From: a virus
Strand: one strand, 5' to 3'
Length of the DNA: 46,263 nucleotides
IMG/VR virus record: IMGVR_UViG_3300042731_004634
Span: 1 to 46,263 of that record
Part shown: piece by piece, positions 1 to 46,263 of the stretch
How the letters are laid out: each line of letters opens with the position of its first letter
Numbering within the stretch: position 1 is the first letter of the stretch
Made by a program: the position numbers and the translations under genes
The notes under the pieces: generated by a model
What the model was told of the DNA's origin: nothing
Seen by the model: the letters and a program-made list of their open reading frames with translations, nothing else
The model's database searches: none

Positions 1-69
1 TGAAAACAATTTTTGAAATAATGACCGATAAATGGAATAAAAAAGCAACCGACGAATTTTGTCATATTA
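1..69. repeat. Terminal direct repeat, left copy
   Basis: Bases 1-69 are identical to 46195-46263. The repeat lies inside one reading frame that continues across the junction, so it is the overlap left by assembling a circular or circularly permuted genome. Short fixed physical ends are a less likely alternative. Confidence 0.9.
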
Positions 70-710
70 AAATTGATGATAAAATTAAACAAAATTATAT
101 TGATTATTTAGGCGATATTGATCTGGAAGATAAAACAGTCATTGATTACGGATGCGGAGGCGGATATTTAGGAAAATATTTGTTTAAAGAAAAAGGTATT
201 AAAAAATACATTGGCTTTGATATTTGCGATAAATCGATAAAGGCAGCAAAGAAAAATCTTAAATCATACGATGCAAAAATATATAAGGTGACCGAACATG
301 TAGACTTCTCACAATATAATGCCGATATATTTCTATCTTTTGAATGCATACAGCATTTCCCAACAGCATTATATTTGAATACTTTTTTGCAGACTGTAAA
401 TGATTCTAAGATACCAGAAATATTATTACAAATAAGGACCGGTAAAGTAACATTTGTTAAAAATAATGTAATGACATATATGTGCAAAATTCCAGATACA
501 ATTATTACAGGAAGATTAAAAAAATATGAATGGATCAGAAAGCAAAAATTTCATGATGGTTTGATAAAAAAAATGTCAATATATTTGAAAAGTAAAATAG
601 AAATAATTGTTGACGAAGTTGAAAAGGAATCTAAAAAAATATATGGTGAAGTGATAGGCGAAGGCAGAGAAGATGTTGTAATCGGTGAGAGTGAGGGAAA
701 AAATGACTAA
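1..710 (+). CDS. Class I SAM-dependent methyltransferase (5' end wraps from the window end)
   Basis: The first ATG inside the window is at 21. The frame stays open to position 1, and the right-end copy shows the true start at 46194 (MKTIFEIMTDK) behind an AAGGAG site, giving 236 residues. A Rossmann methyltransferase motif I (VIDYGCGGGYLG) lies at about residues 47-58, followed by the acidic ribose-binding strand YIGFDICD and a motif IV-like LSFECIQHFP. The substrate is unknown. The gene is the second of the glycan island, directly after the Maf-like glycosyltransferase, so a sugar or lipid-carrier substrate is more likely than DNA. No DNA methyltransferase DPPY or PC motif is visible. Confidence 0.85.
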   Translation, partial: KTIFEIMTDKWNKKATDEFCHIKIDDKIKQNYIDYLGDIDLEDKTVIDYGCGGGYLGKYLFKEKGIKKYIGFDICDKSIKAAKKNLKSYDAKIYKVTEHVDFSQYNADIFLSFECIQHFPTALYLNTFLQTVNDSKIPEILLQIRTGKVTFVKNNVMTYMCKIPDTIITGRLKKYEWIRKQKFHDGLIKKMSIYLKSKIEIIVDEVEKESKKIYGEVIGEGREDVVIGESEGKND

Positions 711-1026
711 ACAGGAATATAAAAATAAAAGACATTTAGAGAGATTATTTAAAAATCCTGTTATCAGACTACAAAAATTCTCTGAATTAACAAAATCATT
801 ATTATTTTTGTCCGCTTTTCAATCAATAGTAATTGTAGCGACAATAGACAAAAAAGAGATAAAAGCTGAAAAAATTGCTAATACGTGGATTGATTTTGCA
901 AATAATATTGTAAGACTATGGAGTATGAATCCGGAAAATAATATAGGCATTAAATCTGTTAAAGACGTATATATTAAATCTATGATTAGCATATTAAATG
1001 AAATAAAAATAAAAAAAGAGGCATAA
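703..1026 (+). CDS. Hypothetical protein
   Basis: 107 residues. I chose ATG 703 because GAGGG lies just upstream; it overlaps the stop of the methyltransferase by 6 bases. An upstream GTG at 685 is also possible. The protein is mixed helical with a hydrophobic central stretch (SLLFLSAFQSIVIVATI) that looks like a buried strand or helix rather than a clear membrane anchor. It lies between two methyltransferases in the glycan island; no family recognised. Confidence 0.7.
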   Translation: MTKQEYKNKRHLERLFKNPVIRLQKFSELTKSLLFLSAFQSIVIVATIDKKEIKAEKIANTWIDFANNIVRLWSMNPENNIGIKSVKDVYIKSMISILNEIKIKKEA

Positions 1027-1542
1027 ATGATTAAAGCAAGATCAACCGTAAAATCATTACAAGGACTTAGAGACTTATGTAAATATATCAAAAATACAAA
1101 AGAAATGTCTATAATTGAAATAGGTAGCTTTTCTGGCGAAAGCTCTGAAATATTCGCACAGAATTTTAAAGAAGTTTGGTGTGTGGATCCATGGGGTATT
1201 AAAACAGCAGATCCGGTTTTAAAACCGTTTATAAAAGATGCTGAAATACAGTTTAATAAACTATGTAAAAAATACCCTAATATAAAAAAGGTTAAAGAAT
1301 ATTCAATTAAGTTATCTGAAATAATAAACAGAACATTTGATGTAATATATATTGATGGGCTACATGATTATAAAAATGTATTTGCAGATATTAAAGCATG
1401 GAAACCGTATATTAAGAAACACATAGCAGGACATGACTATAGAAAAAATAAATTTCCAGGAGTTATAAAAGCCGTTAATCAGGCATTAGGAAAACCAGAT
1501 AAAGTATTTTGTGACTTTTCCTGGATAAAAAAGGTAAAATAA
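1027..1542 (+). CDS. Methyltransferase, Methyltransf_24-like
   Basis: 171 residues starting next to the preceding stop. SAM-binding motif I (IIEIGSFSGESSE) is at residues 29-41, the acidic strand VDPWG at 53-57, and the motif YIDGLHDYKN near 109. A distal GHDY follows. This order is typical of the small-molecule/sugar methyltransferases grouped as Methyltransf_24. Nothing indicates a nucleic-acid substrate. It likely methylates a glycan intermediate made by its neighbours; that is inferred from context. Confidence 0.8.
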   Translation: MIKARSTVKSLQGLRDLCKYIKNTKEMSIIEIGSFSGESSEIFAQNFKEVWCVDPWGIKTADPVLKPFIKDAEIQFNKLCKKYPNIKKVKEYSIKLSEIINRTFDVIYIDGLHDYKNVFADIKAWKPYIKKHIAGHDYRKNKFPGVIKAVNQALGKPDKVFCDFSWIKKVK

Positions 1543-2211
1543 ATGTTGTTAATTTCTATTCCTAAATCGGCCAGTACTTCACTCATGCAGACAATTGCGA
1601 AAATATTAAATATAAAATATCAAAATGGGATTAGTCGAAAAAAGTATGATAAAAGTTTGTTTTGTAATGGTTTTGAAGAAATGCAGGAATACCATGGCAC
1701 AACTATAAAAAGATCGAAAGAATTTTTGAAATTGTGGATAATGCGAAAAGATGTTATATACAAAGAACACTTATTGCCTACAAAAGATCATATTGAATAT
1801 ATAAAAGAAATTGATAAGCCTATTGTAATCTTGTTAAGGGATGTTAATCATGTGATTGATAATTATCAAAGATCCGTAGAAAAATATAAATCCGGGAAAA
1901 TGGGAGCCAGAGAGCAAAAAGGTTTGATAATAAAAAAACTCTGTAAATTGGATTATAAAAAGCTAAAAGAAGAATATAAAGAATTCAACGGGAAATGGTT
2001 ATCGTCTGATTTGGGAAGTAGAGCATTATACATAACCTTCAATGATTTGATATTAAGATATTTTGAAACTATGCGTAATATATTAGATCATTATGGTTAT
2101 CCGAATGCAAAAATAATACCGTTAATGAAAGCAAAGGGAAATCGGGGAGATTATAACACTTATACTGGTATAGGTGAAAAAAGATTAAAAAATAGACAGG
2201 CAGATAGATAA
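1543..2211 (+). CDS. Sulfotransferase-like protein, copy 1
   Basis: 222 residues. The N-terminus ISIPKSASTSLM has the form of the 5'-phosphosulfate-binding loop of PAPS-dependent sulfotransferases. ILLRDVNHVIDNYQR at about 96-110 corresponds to the 3'-phosphate-binding strand and helix (RxxxxxxxSY-like). It shares with the gene at 2729 the motif Y(K/R)EHLLPT and a C-terminal YTGIGxKRLK, so the two are paralogues. Predicted role: transfer of sulfate to a carbohydrate hydroxyl. The acceptor is unknown, and loss of catalysis cannot be excluded. Confidence 0.7.
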   Translation: MLLISIPKSASTSLMQTIAKILNIKYQNGISRKKYDKSLFCNGFEEMQEYHGTTIKRSKEFLKLWIMRKDVIYKEHLLPTKDHIEYIKEIDKPIVILLRDVNHVIDNYQRSVEKYKSGKMGAREQKGLIIKKLCKLDYKKLKEEYKEFNGKWLSSDLGSRALYITFNDLILRYFETMRNILDHYGYPNAKIIPLMKAKGNRGDYNTYTGIGEKRLKNRQADR

Positions 2212-2229
2212 ATTTATGGAGGTAGAAAG

Positions 2230-2508
2230 ATGATTTTAAAAATTGAAAATTTAAATAAGAATGGTTATTTTTATTTTGAAGCAGATGAGTTTGAATATTT
2301 TTCAAATACAATACAAAATATTAAAAAAATGGATTTGAAAAATATAGGATGGTTTATGAAAAATGATAAAAAAGAAGATAAAGAAGATAAAGAAGTTTTA
2401 TTATTTTTTTTATATGCTGAAAATAGGATAAATTATAAAGCTATTGTAACTGATAGGATATGCTATGTTATGAGTAGCAATGGGAAAACAATAGAAAGAA
2501 TAGGTTAA
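2230..2508 (+). CDS. Hypothetical protein
   Basis: 92 residues with a good GGAGG site upstream of ATG 2230. It is a mixed alpha/beta protein with a lysine/acidic repeat (KKEDKEDKEV) in mid-sequence. The region YFEADEFEYFSNTIQNIKKM looks like a small globular N-terminus. It lies between the two sulfotransferase-like paralogues; no family recognised. Confidence 0.65.
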   Translation: MILKIENLNKNGYFYFEADEFEYFSNTIQNIKKMDLKNIGWFMKNDKKEDKEDKEVLLFFLYAENRINYKAIVTDRICYVMSSNGKTIERIG

Positions 2509-2532
2509 TTAAATTGCCTGTCTATTTAATTA
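2506..2532 (+). other. Intergenic hairpin
   Basis: TAATTAAAT (2506-2514) pairs perfectly with ATTTAATTA (2524-2532) around a 9-base loop TGCCTGTCT. The stem is A/T only and overlaps the end of the preceding gene. It lacks a downstream T run, so it is more likely an mRNA stability or spacing element than a terminator. Confidence 0.45.
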
Positions 2533-2545
2533 TAAAGGAAAATAT

Positions 2546-2728
2546 ATGAAAATAATAATAAACGATTATACAAAACAAAAAGAGTTAGAATTTTATATAC
2601 CAGACGAAACAAGGTTTGATAATATTGCTTTAAAATTTCAAGATAGTGAACCAATTCATTATGATAAAAAAGATATTATTAAAGTTTGTAAAATAATATT
2701 AGAATTATATAAGGGGAATGGGGAATAA
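2546..2728 (+). CDS. Hypothetical protein
   Basis: 60 residues, preceded by AAAGGA. It has an N-terminal beta hairpin-like stretch (KIIINDYTKQKELEFYIPD) and a C-terminal helix ending KIILELYKGNGE. Its stop abuts the start of the second sulfotransferase-like gene, suggesting co-translation. No family recognised. Confidence 0.6.
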   Translation: MKIIINDYTKQKELEFYIPDETRFDNIALKFQDSEPIHYDKKDIIKVCKIILELYKGNGE

Positions 2729-3304
2729 ATGTTAATAATATCACAAACAAAAAGCGCAAGTTCTTCATTATTATACACATTATCAGAAATGATGAAAATA
2801 AAGGCACATCCGGGAACAAAGAGAAAAGATTTTCATATTTTAGATGATGGTTATGAACAATTACAAAAATATCACACTCTTATATTTGAAAGATCGCCTT
2901 TGGATATAATGAAAATGATAACAAGCAAAAAATTATTATATAGAGAACACTTATTACCAACTCAAAGAGTGTTTAAAATATTGGATAAACATAAAAATTT
3001 TATTGTCTTGTTAAGAAATCCATTTGACAGTTATGATAATTACCGAAGGGTTTTAGAAAAAACAAACGAAATAAATGAGGCTGTCTTAGATGATCTAATA
3101 CATTTCAATGAAGGATATAAGGAATATATAAAAACTCGTCCTGACATATTGACAATAAATTATGAAGATCTAATTATCGATTACAATAAAACAATGGATA
3201 AAGTAAGAAAATACTGGAATATTAAATCTAAAATAATTAAATTAAAAAAAGTTAAGTATACCGGAATAGGTATAAAAAGATTAAAAGGGGGTTATAATGA
3301 ATGA
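2729..3304 (+). CDS. Sulfotransferase-like protein, copy 2
   Basis: 191 residues; GGGGA precedes ATG 2729. The P-loop-like IISQTKSASSSLL is at residues 3-15, the 3'-phosphate motif FIVLLRNPFDSYDNYRR at about 91-107, and the C-terminal YTGIGIKRLKG matches copy 1. The serine and tyrosine after LLRNP fit the sulfotransferase signature better than in copy 1. The two paralogues differ strongly elsewhere, suggesting separate acceptors. The end overlaps the next gene by 8 bases. Confidence 0.7.
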   Translation: MLIISQTKSASSSLLYTLSEMMKIKAHPGTKRKDFHILDDGYEQLQKYHTLIFERSPLDIMKMITSKKLLYREHLLPTQRVFKILDKHKNFIVLLRNPFDSYDNYRRVLEKTNEINEAVLDDLIHFNEGYKEYIKTRPDILTINYEDLIIDYNKTMDKVRKYWNIKSKIIKLKKVKYTGIGIKRLKGGYNE

Positions 3305-3896
3305 AACATTAGACGTTGAAAAATATGTAAAAGAACCGATAAAAGAGAATTTAAAAACTCTTTTTAGTCATCTTGGTCGTTATTATTATGCAATTAAGAA
3401 GTTAAAAATAGATAAAGACGATACTGTAATGGATATTGGATGCGGTGAAGGTTATGGAAGTTATTTGATAAGTAAAAAAGCAAAGCTTGTTTTAGGCGTC
3501 GATATAAAACACGAAGTTTTAAAAAAAGCAGCTGAAAACTTTGCGCATGAATACTTATACTTCTCAACATATGAATATTATAAGAAATTGAAATTAAAAA
3601 TCAATAAAATTATATGTCTTGAAACAATTGAACATATGACAAAAAAAAAGATAGAATTATTTTTAGAAAATATTTTATCCGGGTTTCAAGGTGAAATATT
3701 TTTGTCTTTTCCGGTCGGGAATAATAACCCATGCAAATATAATAAATATCATAAATGTGAACCTTCAATTGAATATATCGAATCATTATTGGCTAAAAAT
3801 AATTATACCGAAATAGAAATTGAAGTTGATGATTTTGAAAATAATTATGGTTATGAGCAGGTTTTTTGTTTCATAAAGGCAAAGGAATTGTCATGA
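3297..3896 (+). CDS. Class I SAM-dependent methyltransferase (Methyltransf_11/UbiG-like)
   Basis: 199 residues. Motif I VMDIGCGEGYGS is at 44-55, the acidic strand VLGVDIKHEVLKKA near 66-79, and motif IV-like IICLETIEHM near 102. This is the third and most canonical methyltransferase of the island. The C-terminal half contains FLSFPVGNNNPCKYNKYH, resembling the substrate-side loops of sugar and hydroxyacid methyltransferases. Starts inside the end of the preceding gene. Confidence 0.85.
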   Translation: MNETLDVEKYVKEPIKENLKTLFSHLGRYYYAIKKLKIDKDDTVMDIGCGEGYGSYLISKKAKLVLGVDIKHEVLKKAAENFAHEYLYFSTYEYYKKLKLKINKIICLETIEHMTKKKIELFLENILSGFQGEIFLSFPVGNNNPCKYNKYHKCEPSIEYIESLLAKNNYTEIEIEVDDFENNYGYEQVFCFIKAKELS

Positions 3897-4030
3897 AACT
3901 AATTGAGGAAATAGGATGTAATCATAAAGATAATCTTGATGAAATTGAAAAAGCATTGAGGTTCAAGCAAAAAGATATACTTGATTGCGAATTAAAACAA
4001 AGACAAAAATTAAAAAGGGTTATAAAATGA
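3893..4030 (+). CDS. NeuB N-terminal remnant (sialic acid synthase-like fragment)
   Basis: 45 residues. ATG 3893 overlaps the previous stop; the stop at 4028 overlaps the next start. The protein begins with IEEIGCNHKDNLDEIEKAL and continues RFKQKDIL. This matches the opening of N-acetylneuraminate synthase enzymes (IAEIGxNHxGD...AK...VKFQKRD), where the intact enzyme has about 340 residues. The rest of the TIM barrel and the antifreeze-like domain are missing, so it cannot be an active synthase. It precedes a cytidylyltransferase, the usual NeuB-NeuA order, so I read it as a deletion relic still carrying start and stop codons. It could alternatively be an unrelated small protein. Confidence 0.6.
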   Translation: MKLIEEIGCNHKDNLDEIEKALRFKQKDILDCELKQRQKLKRVIK

Positions 4031-4698
4031 ATATTGCTTTGATACCTGCCAGGGGTGGGAGTGAAAGAATAAAAAATAAAAATATAAAAAAGTTCAATAA
4101 AAAACCATTGATATATTGGATATGTAAATCAGTAGAGGAATCTATATTATTCGATGTGGGTTATGTTTCAACAGATAGCGAAAAAATTAAAAATACAGTT
4201 CTTGGATTTGGATTTAAAAAAATTAAAATTATAAATAGGTGTAAAGAAGCCTCGACAAATTATGCAACTGCACATCATGTAATATTAGATTTTTTAAATA
4301 ATATTGATTATAAATTTTCTTATTTAGCCTATTTAAATCCGACAAGTCCTTTTTTTACATATCAATATCTTGATGCTTCATTAAAAGAGCTTATTAAATC
4401 AACAAAAGATAGTCAATTATGCGTAGTTAAGCAAAATCGATTTCAATGGCATGAGACAGGATACCCAAAAAATTATAAAATATTTAATCGTCCTAGAACA
4501 CAAGATATGAAAGCTGATTTAATTGAAGTTGGCGCATGTTATATACAAACTTATAATAATTTAATAAAATTTAAAGATATTTTAGGTGGTGTTATAAATT
4601 TAATTGAACTTCCTGAATATTTTTATTTTGAATTAGACAATCCTTTGGAGTGGACAATAATGAGTACAATAAATAGAAAATTAGGATTATTAAAATGA
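4027..4698 (+). CDS. neuA: Acylneuraminate cytidylyltransferase (CMP-nonulosonate synthetase)
   Basis: 223 residues from ATG 4027, which overlaps the previous stop as ATGA; an in-frame start at 3985 would add 14 basic residues with no ribosome site. The N-terminal IALIPARGGSERIKNKNI is the signature nucleotide-binding loop of CMP-sialic, pseudaminic or legionaminic acid synthetases. LAYLNPTSPFF corresponds to the conserved LxPTSP segment. It would charge a nine-carbon acidic sugar with CMP for transfer to a glycan. The free sugar must come from the host, because only a NeuB fragment is present. The exact sugar cannot be told from sequence alone. Confidence 0.85.
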   Translation: MNIALIPARGGSERIKNKNIKKFNKKPLIYWICKSVEESILFDVGYVSTDSEKIKNTVLGFGFKKIKIINRCKEASTNYATAHHVILDFLNNIDYKFSYLAYLNPTSPFFTYQYLDASLKELIKSTKDSQLCVVKQNRFQWHETGYPKNYKIFNRPRTQDMKADLIEVGACYIQTYNNLIKFKDILGGVINLIELPEYFYFELDNPLEWTIMSTINRKLGLLK

Positions 4699-4997
4699 CA
4701 TTTGTTATAGATATTGACGATACGTTATTGCGATGTGATAATCAAATGTGTATGCACTGCGGAGATAAGAAATATCTTAATCCAAAGCCATTACAGCAAG
4801 AAATAGATTTGGTTAACAAGAAATACAAAGATGGGCATACAATAATACTGCATACGGGCCGGGGATGGGATCAATATGAAATAACTATTATGCAATTGAA
4901 AAAGTTTGGCATAAAATATCATCAATTAGTATGCGGAAAGCCGATTGGCATATATGTTGATAAAGATTCAATTACAAGCTTACGAGAATTGGATTGA
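4695..4997 (+). CDS. HAD-superfamily phosphatase
   Basis: 100 residues; ATG overlaps the previous stop. HAD motif I DIDDT is at residues 6-10, motif II-like ILHTGRG at 51-57, and a C-terminal lysine and acidic pair in KPIGIYVDKD at 82-91. It has no large cap domain, as in the small HAD proteins of capsule and nonulosonate gene clusters. It contains CMHC (19-22), an unusual cysteine pair. Likely role: removal of phosphate from a sugar intermediate. It is the last gene of the island. Confidence 0.8.
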   Translation: MTFVIDIDDTLLRCDNQMCMHCGDKKYLNPKPLQQEIDLVNKKYKDGHTIILHTGRGWDQYEITIMQLKKFGIKYHQLVCGKPIGIYVDKDSITSLRELD

Positions 4998-17613: not shown

Positions 17614-17641
17614 TTGACAAAATAAATAAAAGTACTATACT
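17614..17641 (+). promoter_or_regulatory. Early sigma70 promoter
   Basis: TTGACA (17614-17619), a 16-base spacer and TATACT (17636-17641). The -10 lies in an imperfect dyad AAGTA-CTA-TACTT, a possible operator. Predicted start is near 17648, just before a hairpin, and AAGGAG plus ATG 17686 follow. Confidence 0.8.
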
Positions 17642-17651
17642 TATTATAACG

Positions 17652-17665
17652 GCTTAGAAATAAGC
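17652..17665 (+). promoter_or_regulatory. 5' leader hairpin with GAAA tetraloop
   Basis: GCTTA (17652-17656) pairs with TAAGC (17661-17665) around GAAA. Placed within a few bases of the predicted transcript start, it may protect the 5' end of the early mRNA. Confidence 0.5.
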
Positions 17666-17685
17666 TAAAAAACAAGGAGATTAAA

Positions 17686-18126
17686 ATGACTAAATTATTT
17701 GTAATAACAGATGAATATGATGGAAAAAGATTATTCATCAATCAAGAGGATGTTAGACAGGCAACTGTTCAAGATGCTATTGATTGTGATTGGAGCCTTG
17801 ATGATATTTATGGATCTTCATTGGATGAATATCTTGATGAAGATGGAGAATTATTAGAATCTGAATTAACAGAAGATTTGGATGAATATTATTTTGTTGA
17901 ATATTGGGATGGGAATAATTGGAGAAAAGAACTTCTGGATGTAAATAATATATCAGAAGTTGAGGGCATAATTACAGTATTAGATCCTCCATCTCCTGCA
18001 TTTTATTTTAATTATGAAATACAATTAGAAAATGGAGAAAAAATACAATGTACACAAAGTAATTGTAGTGGAAGTCTATCACCTTATTATGAAGAAAAAG
18101 AAATAATTCACTCTGACGAGTCCTAA
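17686..18126 (+). CDS. Acidic early protein of unknown function
   Basis: 146 residues, first gene after the early promoter, with ACAAGGAGATTAAA before the ATG. It is strongly acidic (DWSLDDIYGSSLDEYLDEDG, then ELLESELTEDLDEYY). This would suit a DNA-mimic or host-takeover protein, but that is speculation. The last six codons and the stop lie inside the hammerhead ribozyme; the stop codon is in the ribozyme stem II loop. Confidence 0.75.
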   Translation: MTKLFVITDEYDGKRLFINQEDVRQATVQDAIDCDWSLDDIYGSSLDEYLDEDGELLESELTEDLDEYYFVEYWDGNNWRKELLDVNNISEVEGIITVLDPPSPAFYFNYEIQLENGEKIQCTQSNCSGSLSPYYEEKEIIHSDES

Positions 18127-18157
18127 AAGGACGAAACGCCTCCGGGCGTCAGTGAAT
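18106..18157 (+). ncRNA. Type I hammerhead ribozyme
   Basis: All core elements are present. Stem I is ATTCACT (18106-18112) with AGTGAAT (18151-18157), 7 perfect pairs. CTGACGA is at 18113-18119. Stem II is GTCC/GGAC (18120-18123 with 18129-18132) with loop TAAAA. GAAA is at 18133-18136. Stem III CGCC/GGCG (18137-18140 with 18145-18148) is capped by UCCG, a UNCG-type tetraloop. The UC before stem I (18149-18150) supplies the GUC cleavage site, with cleavage predicted between 18150 and 18151. Stem I is the open helix, hence type I. It separates two genes that have near-identical ribosome-site leaders. Confidence 0.93.
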
Positions 18158-18176
18158 AACAAACAAGGAGATTAAG

Positions 18177-18455
18177 ATGACAAAATTAGAGAGAAAAGAA
18201 AAAATTGAAAAACAATTACAGAATGCGTATGCAGATATCAAAGATTATCGTGATATTGATTGTGGAGTATGGAGCATATTACAATCAATTATTAGTTGTA
18301 ACAAAAAAGTGAATAAGTTCAATGTATATCAAGAGCTTAAACCTTTTTCTGCAATGACAAGCCAATTAAAAAGAAGAATGTACACAAAAGTAAAAGCTTT
18401 TTTATCCGATTCAGGAATGCTTGATTATATAAAGAATTATAAATATTCAGAATAA
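18177..18455 (+). CDS. Hypothetical early protein
   Basis: 92 residues, basic and helical. The leader ACAAGGAGATTAAG and the first codons (MTKL) closely resemble those of the gene upstream of the ribozyme. After ribozyme cleavage the mRNA for this gene would begin with 5'-OH at 18151, 26 bases before ATG. No family recognised. Confidence 0.75.
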   Translation: MTKLERKEKIEKQLQNAYADIKDYRDIDCGVWSILQSIISCNKKVNKFNVYQELKPFSAMTSQLKRRMYTKVKAFLSDSGMLDYIKNYKYSE

Positions 18456-18464
18456 TAATTTATA

Positions 18465-18493
18465 GGAGATCTCATTTGTTAAGTGCGATCTCC
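18465..18493 (+). promoter_or_regulatory. Hairpin 1 of a tandem hairpin region
   Basis: GGAGATC (18465-18471) pairs with GATCTCC (18487-18493), loop of 15 bases. The 5' strand has a Shine-Dalgarno-like GGAG and the 3' strand its complement CTCC. Confidence 0.55.
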
Positions 18494-18498
18494 TTGTT

Positions 18499-18538
18499 AC
18501 GAGAGGCCATACCTCCCCGGTCAATGCCTCTCGTTTTT
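18499..18538 (+). terminator. Rho-independent terminator (hairpin 2)
   Basis: ACGAGAGGC (18499-18507) pairs with GCCTCTCGT (18526-18534), 9 perfect pairs, followed by a run of T to 18538. The 18-base loop contains ACCTCCCC, which is complementary to ribosome binding sites, so the RNA could also act in trans. Confidence 0.75.
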
Positions 18539-44081: not shown

Positions 44082-44479
44082 CACCAATCGAGAAACTTAA
44101 ACAATTAAGATCAGAAATAGTCGAGATGTCAATCAAAGGTGCTTTGATAACTATATTATGCAAAGATGGAAAATTTCGGGATTATAAAATAAAAGATTAT
44201 GCAAAACTATGTGTGTATGTAGAAGCCATGAGGGCACAATCAAAGGCAACTATCAATATTGCAATGGAATATGACAGCGATCTTATACAAGTCTCTAAAC
44301 ATAATTCTATTTGTGATGTGTGTAAAAATTACGACGGTAAGGTATTTTCAATAAGTGGTAATGATCCAGACTTTCCTTATTATGATGACTTCATCCCGGC
44401 GCATCCCAACTGCAAGCATACCACAACAGTAATATTCAGAGAAATTATTGATAAATATGGAGTTGAAAAATATAAATGA
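44078..44479 (+). CDS. MuF-like minor capsid protein (C-terminal type)
   Basis: 133 residues. The C-terminus SICDVCKNYDGKVFSISG then DDFIPAHPNCKH is the hallmark of phage Mu F/SPP1 gp7-type minor capsid proteins, with cysteines and histidine as probable zinc ligands. Much shorter than usual (250 or more), consistent with a split gene together with the preceding coiled-coil gene. Last head gene before the glycan island. Confidence 0.75.
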   Translation: MTPIEKLKQLRSEIVEMSIKGALITILCKDGKFRDYKIKDYAKLCVYVEAMRAQSKATINIAMEYDSDLIQVSKHNSICDVCKNYDGKVFSISGNDPDFPYYDDFIPAHPNCKHTTTVIFREIIDKYGVEKYK

Positions 44480-46191
44480 AAAAACTAAGTTCTGGGGATA
44501 TAAAATTACAAATACACAGAATACAAAGAAAGAATAAGAAAAGTAAAAAATTATCTTCTTTTGGGTTAAATATTCATAAAAAAAGTTTTGTGAATAATAC
44601 TTACTGGCAGGAAATGAAAGTGCTCAGAGAAACTATCGGTGATAAAAAAGGCCAGTTTTGTAATATAAAAGATGCTTGGAAAAATGAGCCTTGCTTTATA
44701 ATCGGTACTTCCCGGGCAATTGAAGGTTTTGATTTCAATTTACTTAATGGTTTTCATACAATAGGAATAAATCATTTGATTGAAGATTGGGACTTAATGG
44801 AATGGTTTATTTATTTGGATGAAAGATTTATCAAAAAAACAACATATGACTTAAACAAATTCAAGGGAAAAGTTTTTGGAGCGAGTCAGACTAATATTCT
44901 ACAAAGGAAAAATTATATTAGATTCAAGCAGATTTCAAGAATTTACAATGTTGATCTTAATATACAAAATGGGCTATTTGGAAAATTAACCGGTGTATGT
45001 GCTATTCACCTGGCTCTTATATCCGGGGCAAATCCAATATATCTTCTTGGAATGGATACAAAAAAAGAACATGCAAAAGCGGAAGAAAAAGAAAAAATAA
45101 ATCATCATTATAAGTCTGATTATACTTGGGAAATAAAAACCGGAAAATATCTACAAAAATATGTTAGAACATATAAAAGTTATTTGAAATTCAGCCCCTG
45201 GAAAAATAGGATCATAAACGTTTGTATAGATGGTACGGCGCCTGATATATTCAAAAGGATAAGCCAGGAAGAATTAAAAAAAGAAATCAAAAAATTAAGA
45301 AAAGAACAAAAAGAAAGAGCCCCAAAAGAAAAAGTTATATGTCATGTAACTAATTTTGAAGATATAAACAGAATGAACGAATTATCTAGACAGATATTTT
45401 CATTAACCGAGGGTAAGCATATAAGGGCCCATATAGATAATAAACTTCCGGATGCAGATATATATTTGTTAGAATGTATATTAAGGGATCGTCAAAAGTT
45501 TGTTCACTTCAAGCCTCATATGGGTAAGTTAATATCATTGATACATTCCAGGAATGTTTTTTCAAAATATAGCGATAAATGCGTTGTGTTAACAAAAAGT
45601 CAAAAAATTGGTAATGATGTAGTAATACCATGTGCAATTGACATGAAATATTACCAGCATGAAATTGATTATAATAACAAAGTGTTTGGCAGAATAACCC
45701 CATATTCAACCGGGAAAGTGCATCCAAAATTCAATGAAGTAGCAAATAATATAATGAGAAAAGTTAAAGACAGTAAATGTCTTATGATATCAAATAATGT
45801 GAGAAACAGGAAAGATCCAAATATTGAATATATTGAAGATATTGGAAGGCATGAGAATAAAAAAAAGGCAAAAGCATTGAGTAGAATTTCTATCTTTGCG
45901 GACATGCATAATACTTACTTAGAGACTTTTTCAATAAGCTTATTAGAAGCCATGGCGTCAGGTCATGCGATTGTATTATATTCTAAGATCCCCCAGGATG
46001 CAATGACAGAAGTTTTAGGTGATGCTGGTATTATATGCAAAACAATTCAAGAGTTTGAAGAAAAAGTAATTTATTTGTTAGAAAATCCAAAAGTTAAAAA
46101 AGGATATGGATTGAAGGCAAAAGAACGGGCTAGGTTATATTCAATAGAGAACCTGGTAAAAAAATGGAACTTATTATTTAAGGAGTTATAA
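44476..46191 (+). CDS. Maf/DUF115-like and GT4 glycosyltransferase fusion
   Basis: 571 residues; ATGA overlap with the MuF gene. Residues about 68-270 (CFIIGTSRAIEGFDFNLL, TIGINHLIEDWD, GVCAIHLALISGANPIYLLG MD) match the MptE/DUF115 fold of Maf flagellin nonulosonate transferases. Residues about 290-571 form a GT-B domain; ETFSISLLEAMASGHAIV carries the GT4 E-x7-E signature for NDP-sugar binding. A bifunctional glycosyltransferase, likely using the CMP-sugar from the NeuA-like enzyme in one half. The acceptor is not known. First gene of the island. Confidence 0.85.
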   Translation: MKKLSSGDIKLQIHRIQRKNKKSKKLSSFGLNIHKKSFVNNTYWQEMKVLRETIGDKKGQFCNIKDAWKNEPCFIIGTSRAIEGFDFNLLNGFHTIGINHLIEDWDLMEWFIYLDERFIKKTTYDLNKFKGKVFGASQTNILQRKNYIRFKQISRIYNVDLNIQNGLFGKLTGVCAIHLALISGANPIYLLGMDTKKEHAKAEEKEKINHHYKSDYTWEIKTGKYLQKYVRTYKSYLKFSPWKNRIINVCIDGTAPDIFKRISQEELKKEIKKLRKEQKERAPKEKVICHVTNFEDINRMNELSRQIFSLTEGKHIRAHIDNKLPDADIYLLECILRDRQKFVHFKPHMGKLISLIHSRNVFSKYSDKCVVLTKSQKIGNDVVIPCAIDMKYYQHEIDYNNKVFGRITPYSTGKVHPKFNEVANNIMRKVKDSKCLMISNNVRNRKDPNIEYIEDIGRHENKKKAKALSRISIFADMHNTYLETFSISLLEAMASGHAIVLYSKIPQDAMTEVLGDAGIICKTIQEFEEKVIYLLENPKVKKGYGLKAKERARLYSIENLVKKWNLLFKEL

Positions 46192-46193
46192 TT

Positions 46194-46263
46194 ATGAAAA
46201 CAATTTTTGAAATAATGACCGATAAATGGAATAAAAAAGCAACCGACGAATTTTGTCATATTA
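46194..46263 (+). CDS. Start of the wrapped methyltransferase gene (5' part)
   Basis: ATG 46194 follows AAGGAG; the frame MKTIFEIMTDK continues seamlessly at window position 1. This is the true N-terminus of the gene listed at 1-710. Confidence 0.88.
   Translation, partial: MKTIFEIMTDKWNKKATDEFCHI
46195..46263. repeat. Terminal direct repeat, right copy
   Basis: Identical to bases 1-69; trimming either copy closes the circle without altering any frame. Confidence 0.9.

Follow-up and report, generated by a model that had tools for sequence, protein, structure and literature searches.

The viral DNA analyzed here (the window, 46,263 bases in length) carries a complete type I hammerhead ribozyme motif at positions 18106-18157 of the plus strand, recognizable from its sequence, its predicted fold and covariance models. 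The motif is positioned between two co-directed plus-strand genes of the phage, which we refer to as genes A and B, and the stop codon of gene A falls inside it. In itself the ribozyme is ordinary, and hammerheads at phage gene junctions are already known from an earlier study and a review (PMC3088659; PMC6155905). The part worth following is a rule of placement rather than the single ribozyme: with phage type I hammerheads the preceding gene as a rule stops at the ribozyme or within it, this phage is not peculiar in that respect, and the same layout is present at hundreds of phage junctions. We propose that the role of this canonical type I hammerhead is probably to separate the two cistrons of a phage transcript.

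Genes A and B, together with the ribozyme between them, look like a self-contained two-gene unit of ~0.9 kb with the following features.

17614-17641 (+): promoter-like TTGACA-16-TATACT, upstream of the two-gene unit (consensus scan, 11/12 match)
17651-17666 (+): small hairpin GGCUUA-GAAA-UAAGCU at the putative 5' terminus of the unprocessed transcript (fold -5.7 kcal/mol, z -2.1)
17666-17697 (+): leader copy 1, with ribosome-binding site and gene A start (29/32 identical to copy 2)
17686-18126 (+): gene A, 146 aa, pI 4.05, charge -29 (ORF)
18106-18157 (+): type I hammerhead ribozyme (RF00163, 34.5 bits; phage model, 56.1 bits; fold)
18106-18112 (+): helix I 5' strand, AUUCACU (sequence)
18113-18119 (+): catalytic core CUGACGA (sequence)
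18120-18132 (+): helix II, GUCC 18120-18123 with GGAC 18129-18132, loop UAAAA (sequence)
18124-18126 (+): gene A stop codon (TAA), within loop II (ORF, sequence)
18133-18135 (+): catalytic core GAA of GAAA, which spans 18133-18136 (sequence)
18136-18149 (+): helix III, ACGCC 18136-18140 with GGCGU 18145-18149, UCCG tetraloop (sequence, fold)
18150 (+): C17, with predicted cleavage 3' of this base (hammerhead consensus position)
18151-18157 (+): helix I 3' strand, AGUGAAU; predicted downstream 5'-OH end at 18151 (sequence)
18157-18188 (+): leader copy 2 with gene B ribosome-binding site, unstructured (repeat, fold)
18177-18455 (+): gene B, 92 aa, basic, pI 9.4 (ORF)
18464-18536 (+): pair of stable hairpins with a T run after the second, a probable terminator (fold -33.1 kcal/mol, z -6.3)

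The ribozyme encodes the last six residues of gene A (I-H-S-D-E-S) and then its stop codon, which is how the first-pass annotation had read the junction, with the final codons inside the ribozyme and the TAA in loop II. The stop of A and the start of B are 50 nt apart, and the predicted cut divides this interval into 24 nt from the stop, the distance that had been given for the upstream RNA end, and 26 nt to the gene B start codon, where there is a good ribosome-binding site. The near-identical leader reported ahead of gene B does match that of gene A, at 29/32 positions, and this leader sequence has no further copy in the window. Over its first 65 nt, the predicted downstream product has a minimum free energy of 0, i.e. 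no structure. A bicistronic context had also been claimed for the junction, and it is backed by the promoter-like site at 17614-17641 and the terminator-like hairpins at 18464-18536; promoter-like sites in the region do not exceed the chance number, and the one at 17614-17641 is weak taken alone. The second of the two 3' hairpins has a long internal part, and the loop limit of the terminator scan missed the pair. A terminator-like call on the minus strand was merely helix III read in reverse. Leader copy 2 starts on the last base of the ribozyme, and gene A plus the ribozyme resemble a cassette between two leader copies.

By every feature that can be tested conclusively, the window hammerhead belongs to the type I family. 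The core elements CUGANGA and GAAA are present at 18113-18119 and 18133-18136; helices I, II and III comprise 7, 4 and 5 pairs, every one of them standard; GUC at 18148-18150 provides the NUH cleavage triplet 3' of helix III; and the topology, with helix I open and helices II and III closed by loops, is that of type I. The first-pass annotation had listed the core letters, three perfect helices, a UNCG-type loop on stem III and the GUC triplet, all of which hold in position and in letter, and its cleavage site after 18150 agrees with the predicted position C17 in the hammerhead consensus and in two covariance models. It had also suggested a search with the Rfam hammerhead models, and this recovers RF00163 just above the gathering score (34.5 vs 34 bits, a narrow margin; E 5.6e-5), with an alignment that spans model positions 1-45 in full and is the sole Rfam match at gathering level across the whole window. 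A phage-only covariance model, trained on 48 hammerheads from other phage contigs with the window and the similar locus L018 left out, scores the window hammerhead at 56.1 bits (E ~1e-11). The minimum free energy fold recovers all three helices (z = -3.6), and the full type I motif is present in one copy in the window vs none in 150 dinucleotide-resampled windows, both strands being counted. These results bear out the annotated complete hammerhead at 18106-18157. The bare core pattern without helices is expected 0.3 times per window and is hence weaker evidence.

The wider occurrence of such sites was surveyed in IMG/VR. A scan for the core plus helix II gave at least 120 loci and, as its pattern did not demand helices I and III, it affords an unbiased pairing test: among the matches listed, both helices form, in type I order, in 87 of 126 unique sites, vs 0.15 sites on average in a shuffled-flank control. 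Two further IMG/VR scans brought the catalogue to at least 412 non-redundant type I hammerheads from 356 loci, the window itself being locus L001. The three DNA patterns behind the catalogue bias the sample, its ORFs were called mechanically, and its covariation table is no independent proof of pairing, because the detector itself demanded pairing. Contigs with at least three type I sites in nearby gene junctions include L084, L009, L079, L316 and L163; at many of these sites the upstream gene stops at the ribozyme or inside it, and the long messages of such contigs may be cleaved one gene at a time. A degenerate hammerhead-like sequence in AP013540 (L357, Votkovvirus S28C10, 1194-1246) scores 32 bits and was not counted, since its helix II opens with a U-U mismatch. 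The annotated amidase gene of that phage also stops in loop II, in the same register as gene A, at a site that is either decayed or a variant.

The catalogue type I consensus, A-G-N5-CUGANGAG..UNAAU..CGAAAC..GUC-N5-C-A-A, is mostly kept in the window, and the exact core with a UAAAA loop occurs at only five IMG/VR loci. The nearest look-alike, L018, shares the UAAAA loop II and differs in loop III. Its helix I reads AUUCGUU/AACGAAU vs AUUCACU/AGUGAAU in the window, i.e. two compensated base-pair changes. In L018 the stop codon lies at the 5' edge of helix I, a ribosome-binding site and start directly follow helix I on its 3' side, with the start codon 23 nt past the cut, and the flanking genes are unrelated to A and B. 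Where the window departs from the consensus is in the features of the contact between stem I and loop II. In the consensus, A-7 and A+7 beside a 6-bp helix I, together with the loop UNAAU, probably make a loop II/stem I tertiary contact; the window keeps A-7 but has the loop UAAAA, and its helix I is 7 bp long with an A-U pair, whereas the consensus has a 6-bp helix with A opposite A. Because these contact features are only partly kept, the predicted cleavage at cellular magnesium could be slower than that of the consensus form. As a point of reference, 4 of 18 consensus hammerheads were inactive in vitro according to Perreault et al., 2011 (PMC3088659).

The placement survey covered the 382 catalogue type I members with enough flanking DNA, the upstream ORF being the longest one of at least 50 codons that ends no more than 200 nt before the ribozyme or inside it. 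The upstream stop falls within -10 to +18 nt of the CUGA core in 249 of these members (65%), vs 7% (maximum 9.4%) for a control at random positions on the same strands, and in 129/382 it lies at 0 to +18, that is, in the core or loop II. The registers come from a somewhat different selection of catalogue members (392): 98 stops at -6 to -4, on the 5' edge of helix I, 44 right before CUGA, 66 formed by the UGA of the core itself, and 21 in loop II at +14, which is the register of the window. When ORFs of at least 80 codons that are open into helix I are considered, none of 90 ends in helix III or passes the cut, as compared with 32% expected from three frames. Clustering by similarity of the upstream DNA yields 344 clusters, 318 of them with an upstream ORF; the stop lies between -10 and loop II in 227 of the 318, and ~29% of the clusters with an ORF show no stop overlap. 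Across the clustered catalogue the stop-to-cut distance is never below 20 nt, and the next ATG lies a median of 26 nt past the cut, as it does in the window.

Proteins that end in the +14 register, although otherwise unrelated, mostly terminate in (-T/S-)D/E-E-S/P/L-stop, as gene A does, and they share this ending because the ribozyme core encodes those residues. Protein databases might be searched for such junctions with the shared C-terminal ending as a possible signature.

Type III hammerheads from the same loci behave differently: in a small sample (n=56) the upstream stop mostly lies 25-40 nt before the ribozyme, with no overlap. Phage type III sites lie in leaders, often ~25-30 nt ahead of the next start codon. 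The difference in stop placement fits the anatomy of the two types, since cleavage leaves the ribozyme body attached to the upstream RNA in type I and to the downstream RNA in type III. We did not find this placement of stop codons reported in the literature searched, which covered few subscription papers; the term 'stop codon' is absent from the main texts of PMC3088659 and PMC6155905, and the rule measured here does not appear in the passages of them that were consulted.

We suggest that cleavage likely splits the bicistronic mRNA into two independent messages, by analogy with prophage hammerheads for which intercistronic processing into single-gene mRNAs has been proposed and whose native arrays cleave in E. 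coli as well as in vitro (Perreault et al., 2011; PMC3088659). Once RNA polymerase has moved past ~18157, and with no ribosome over the ribozyme, the transcript would cut itself after C18150. The gene A mRNA would then extend 24 nt beyond its stop codon, finish with the hairpins of stems II and III and a 2',3'-cyclic phosphate, and stay fully translatable with a structured 3' end. The gene B mRNA would begin with a 5'-OH followed by a 26-nt unstructured leader that carries the ribosome-binding site, and the two messages could from that point be translated and degraded independently. Placing the stop codon within the 5' half of the ribozyme would keep the junction short and leave the coding sequence untouched by the cut. 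Given the size of ribosome footprints, a terminating ribosome has room when at least 20 nt lie beyond the stop codon, and because the predicted cut is always at least 20 nt past the stop, the upstream mRNA would keep both its stop codon and this room.

The same geometry raises the question of whether the ribosome takes part. While terminating at 18124-18126, a ribosome would sit over stem II and the greater part of the core, and translation of A should for that reason delay cleavage. In a stronger form of this argument, ribosomes ending on A would hold the ribozyme unfolded, the message would stay bicistronic until translation of A stopped, and the ribozyme would in effect sense gene A translation. 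Such gating fits the layout of the junction, where loop II holds the stop and the ribozyme itself supplies six codons. In the catalogue, long ORFs never extend as far as the cut, and type I stops lie at or in the ribozyme, those of type III 25-40 nt before it. However, the type III comparison rests on the small sample of 56, gene packing alone would also place a stop at the ribozyme edge, many stops sit at that 5' edge rather than deep inside, and a single cut between two ribosomes suffices for mRNA processing without any switch; we consider a translation-gated switch at this junction unlikely. For stop-embedded type I hammerheads across many phage lineages, a physical coupling in which ribosome release from the upstream stop permits the cut is an idea that we hold as doubtful. 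If it were true, stop-coupled cleavage would be a widespread mechanism of ribosome-timed RNA processing in phages.

The ribozyme might instead serve the stability of one product, either as a 3'-end protector of A or by giving B a stable 5'-OH end. The upstream RNA would retain the ribozyme body, with helix III one base short of the 3' end, the downstream RNA has an unstructured leader, and an engineered ribozyme insulator lifts transcript levels ~twofold (PMC6206723). That insulator, RiboJ, leaves a hairpin on the downstream RNA, unlike the type I layout, which makes the analogy partial. We regard a one-sided role as a tentative possibility. The 32-nt direct repeat (29/32 identical) that flanks gene A and the ribozyme, with copy 2 beginning at the last base of the ribozyme, would be expected if this segment were a mobile or remnant cassette inserted between the promoter leader and B and had no function in expression. 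Intact pairing with compensated changes between phages, and distances to stop and start codons that stay the same although the genes differ, which argues for selection, make this improbable. The same compensated changes relative to L018, together with the matches to two covariance models and the lack of any full motif in 150 resampled windows, weigh against an inactive chance match, which we find scarcely credible even though a bare core is expected 0.3 times per window. We favor separation of the A and B messages as the function of the ribozyme.

Comparison with known systems places the window ribozyme close to several of them. It has the core, three helices, GUC site and open helix I of the RF00163 type I hammerhead, but the stop codon in loop II is a feature of the window and does not define the family. 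The phage and prophage hammerheads described in PMC3088659 and the review PMC6155905, which flank single genes, are likewise self-cleaving motifs between small uncharacterized genes in a phage transcript. In haloviruses HF1/HF2 a hammerhead likewise lies directly upstream of an early gene, a helicase, and the 5' end of an RNA was mapped no more than 3 nt from the cut; it differs in its variant core, its archaeal host and its position 13 nt ahead of the start codon (PMC3088659). RiboJ, derived from the sTRSV ribozyme, also self-cleaves between transcribed parts and standardizes the downstream 5' end, but it is engineered, its added hairpin stays downstream, and it sits after a promoter rather than at a gene-gene junction (PMC6206723). 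A hammerhead-like site of Agrobacterium phage OLIVR1 (MT234338) likewise falls between small genes and scores 58.4 bits with the phage model and 31.4 bits in Rfam, under the cut-off; unlike the window site, it has no annotated stop inside and lies ~130 nt past the previous gene.

The review PMC6155905 treats the purpose that hammerheads serve in bacteria and phages as an open question. The placement rule makes this question specific, namely whether translation acts on cleavage and whether cleavage acts on each mRNA separately. Should the two processes be coupled, the ribozyme would serve phages as a timed message separator; should they be uncoupled, the rule still identifies these hammerheads as sites of processing that are accommodated in very short junctions between genes.

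The two-gene unit sits after the lysis genes and before the exonuclease and replication genes, and from this genome position the 'early' status of genes A and B is plausible. No relatives of A or B were found in IMG/VR by exact 8-residue words, which distant kin would escape, in PHROGs/Pfam, or by tblastn against 50,697 phage records, and structure predictions made without an alignment are uninformative (pLDDT 36 and 53). DNA-mimic and anti-restriction proteins can be as extremely acidic as the gene A product. The DNA of the junction matches other phages over no more than the length of the core. No relatives emerged from IMG/VR either when the endolysin and a probable capsid-region protein served as queries, again by exact 8-residue words that distant kin would escape. 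Two loop-specific ribozyme core patterns had no exact match in 84,980 bacterial and archaeal genomes, a search of those loops only and without a positive control, and this hints at free phages rather than prophages.

The genome is AT-rich and belongs to a tailed phage; it encodes a terminase, a tape measure protein and an endolysin. The ends of the window are identical over 69 nt (1-69 and 46195-46263), and the IMG/VR record is a circular assembly that is probably complete. Positions 1-4997 and 44476-46191 hold a block of surface-chemistry genes, which encode three methyltransferase-like proteins, a cytidylyltransferase (PF02348, 4e-20), a HAD-like phosphatase and a glycosyltransferase, and in which there is also a weak sulfotransferase match.
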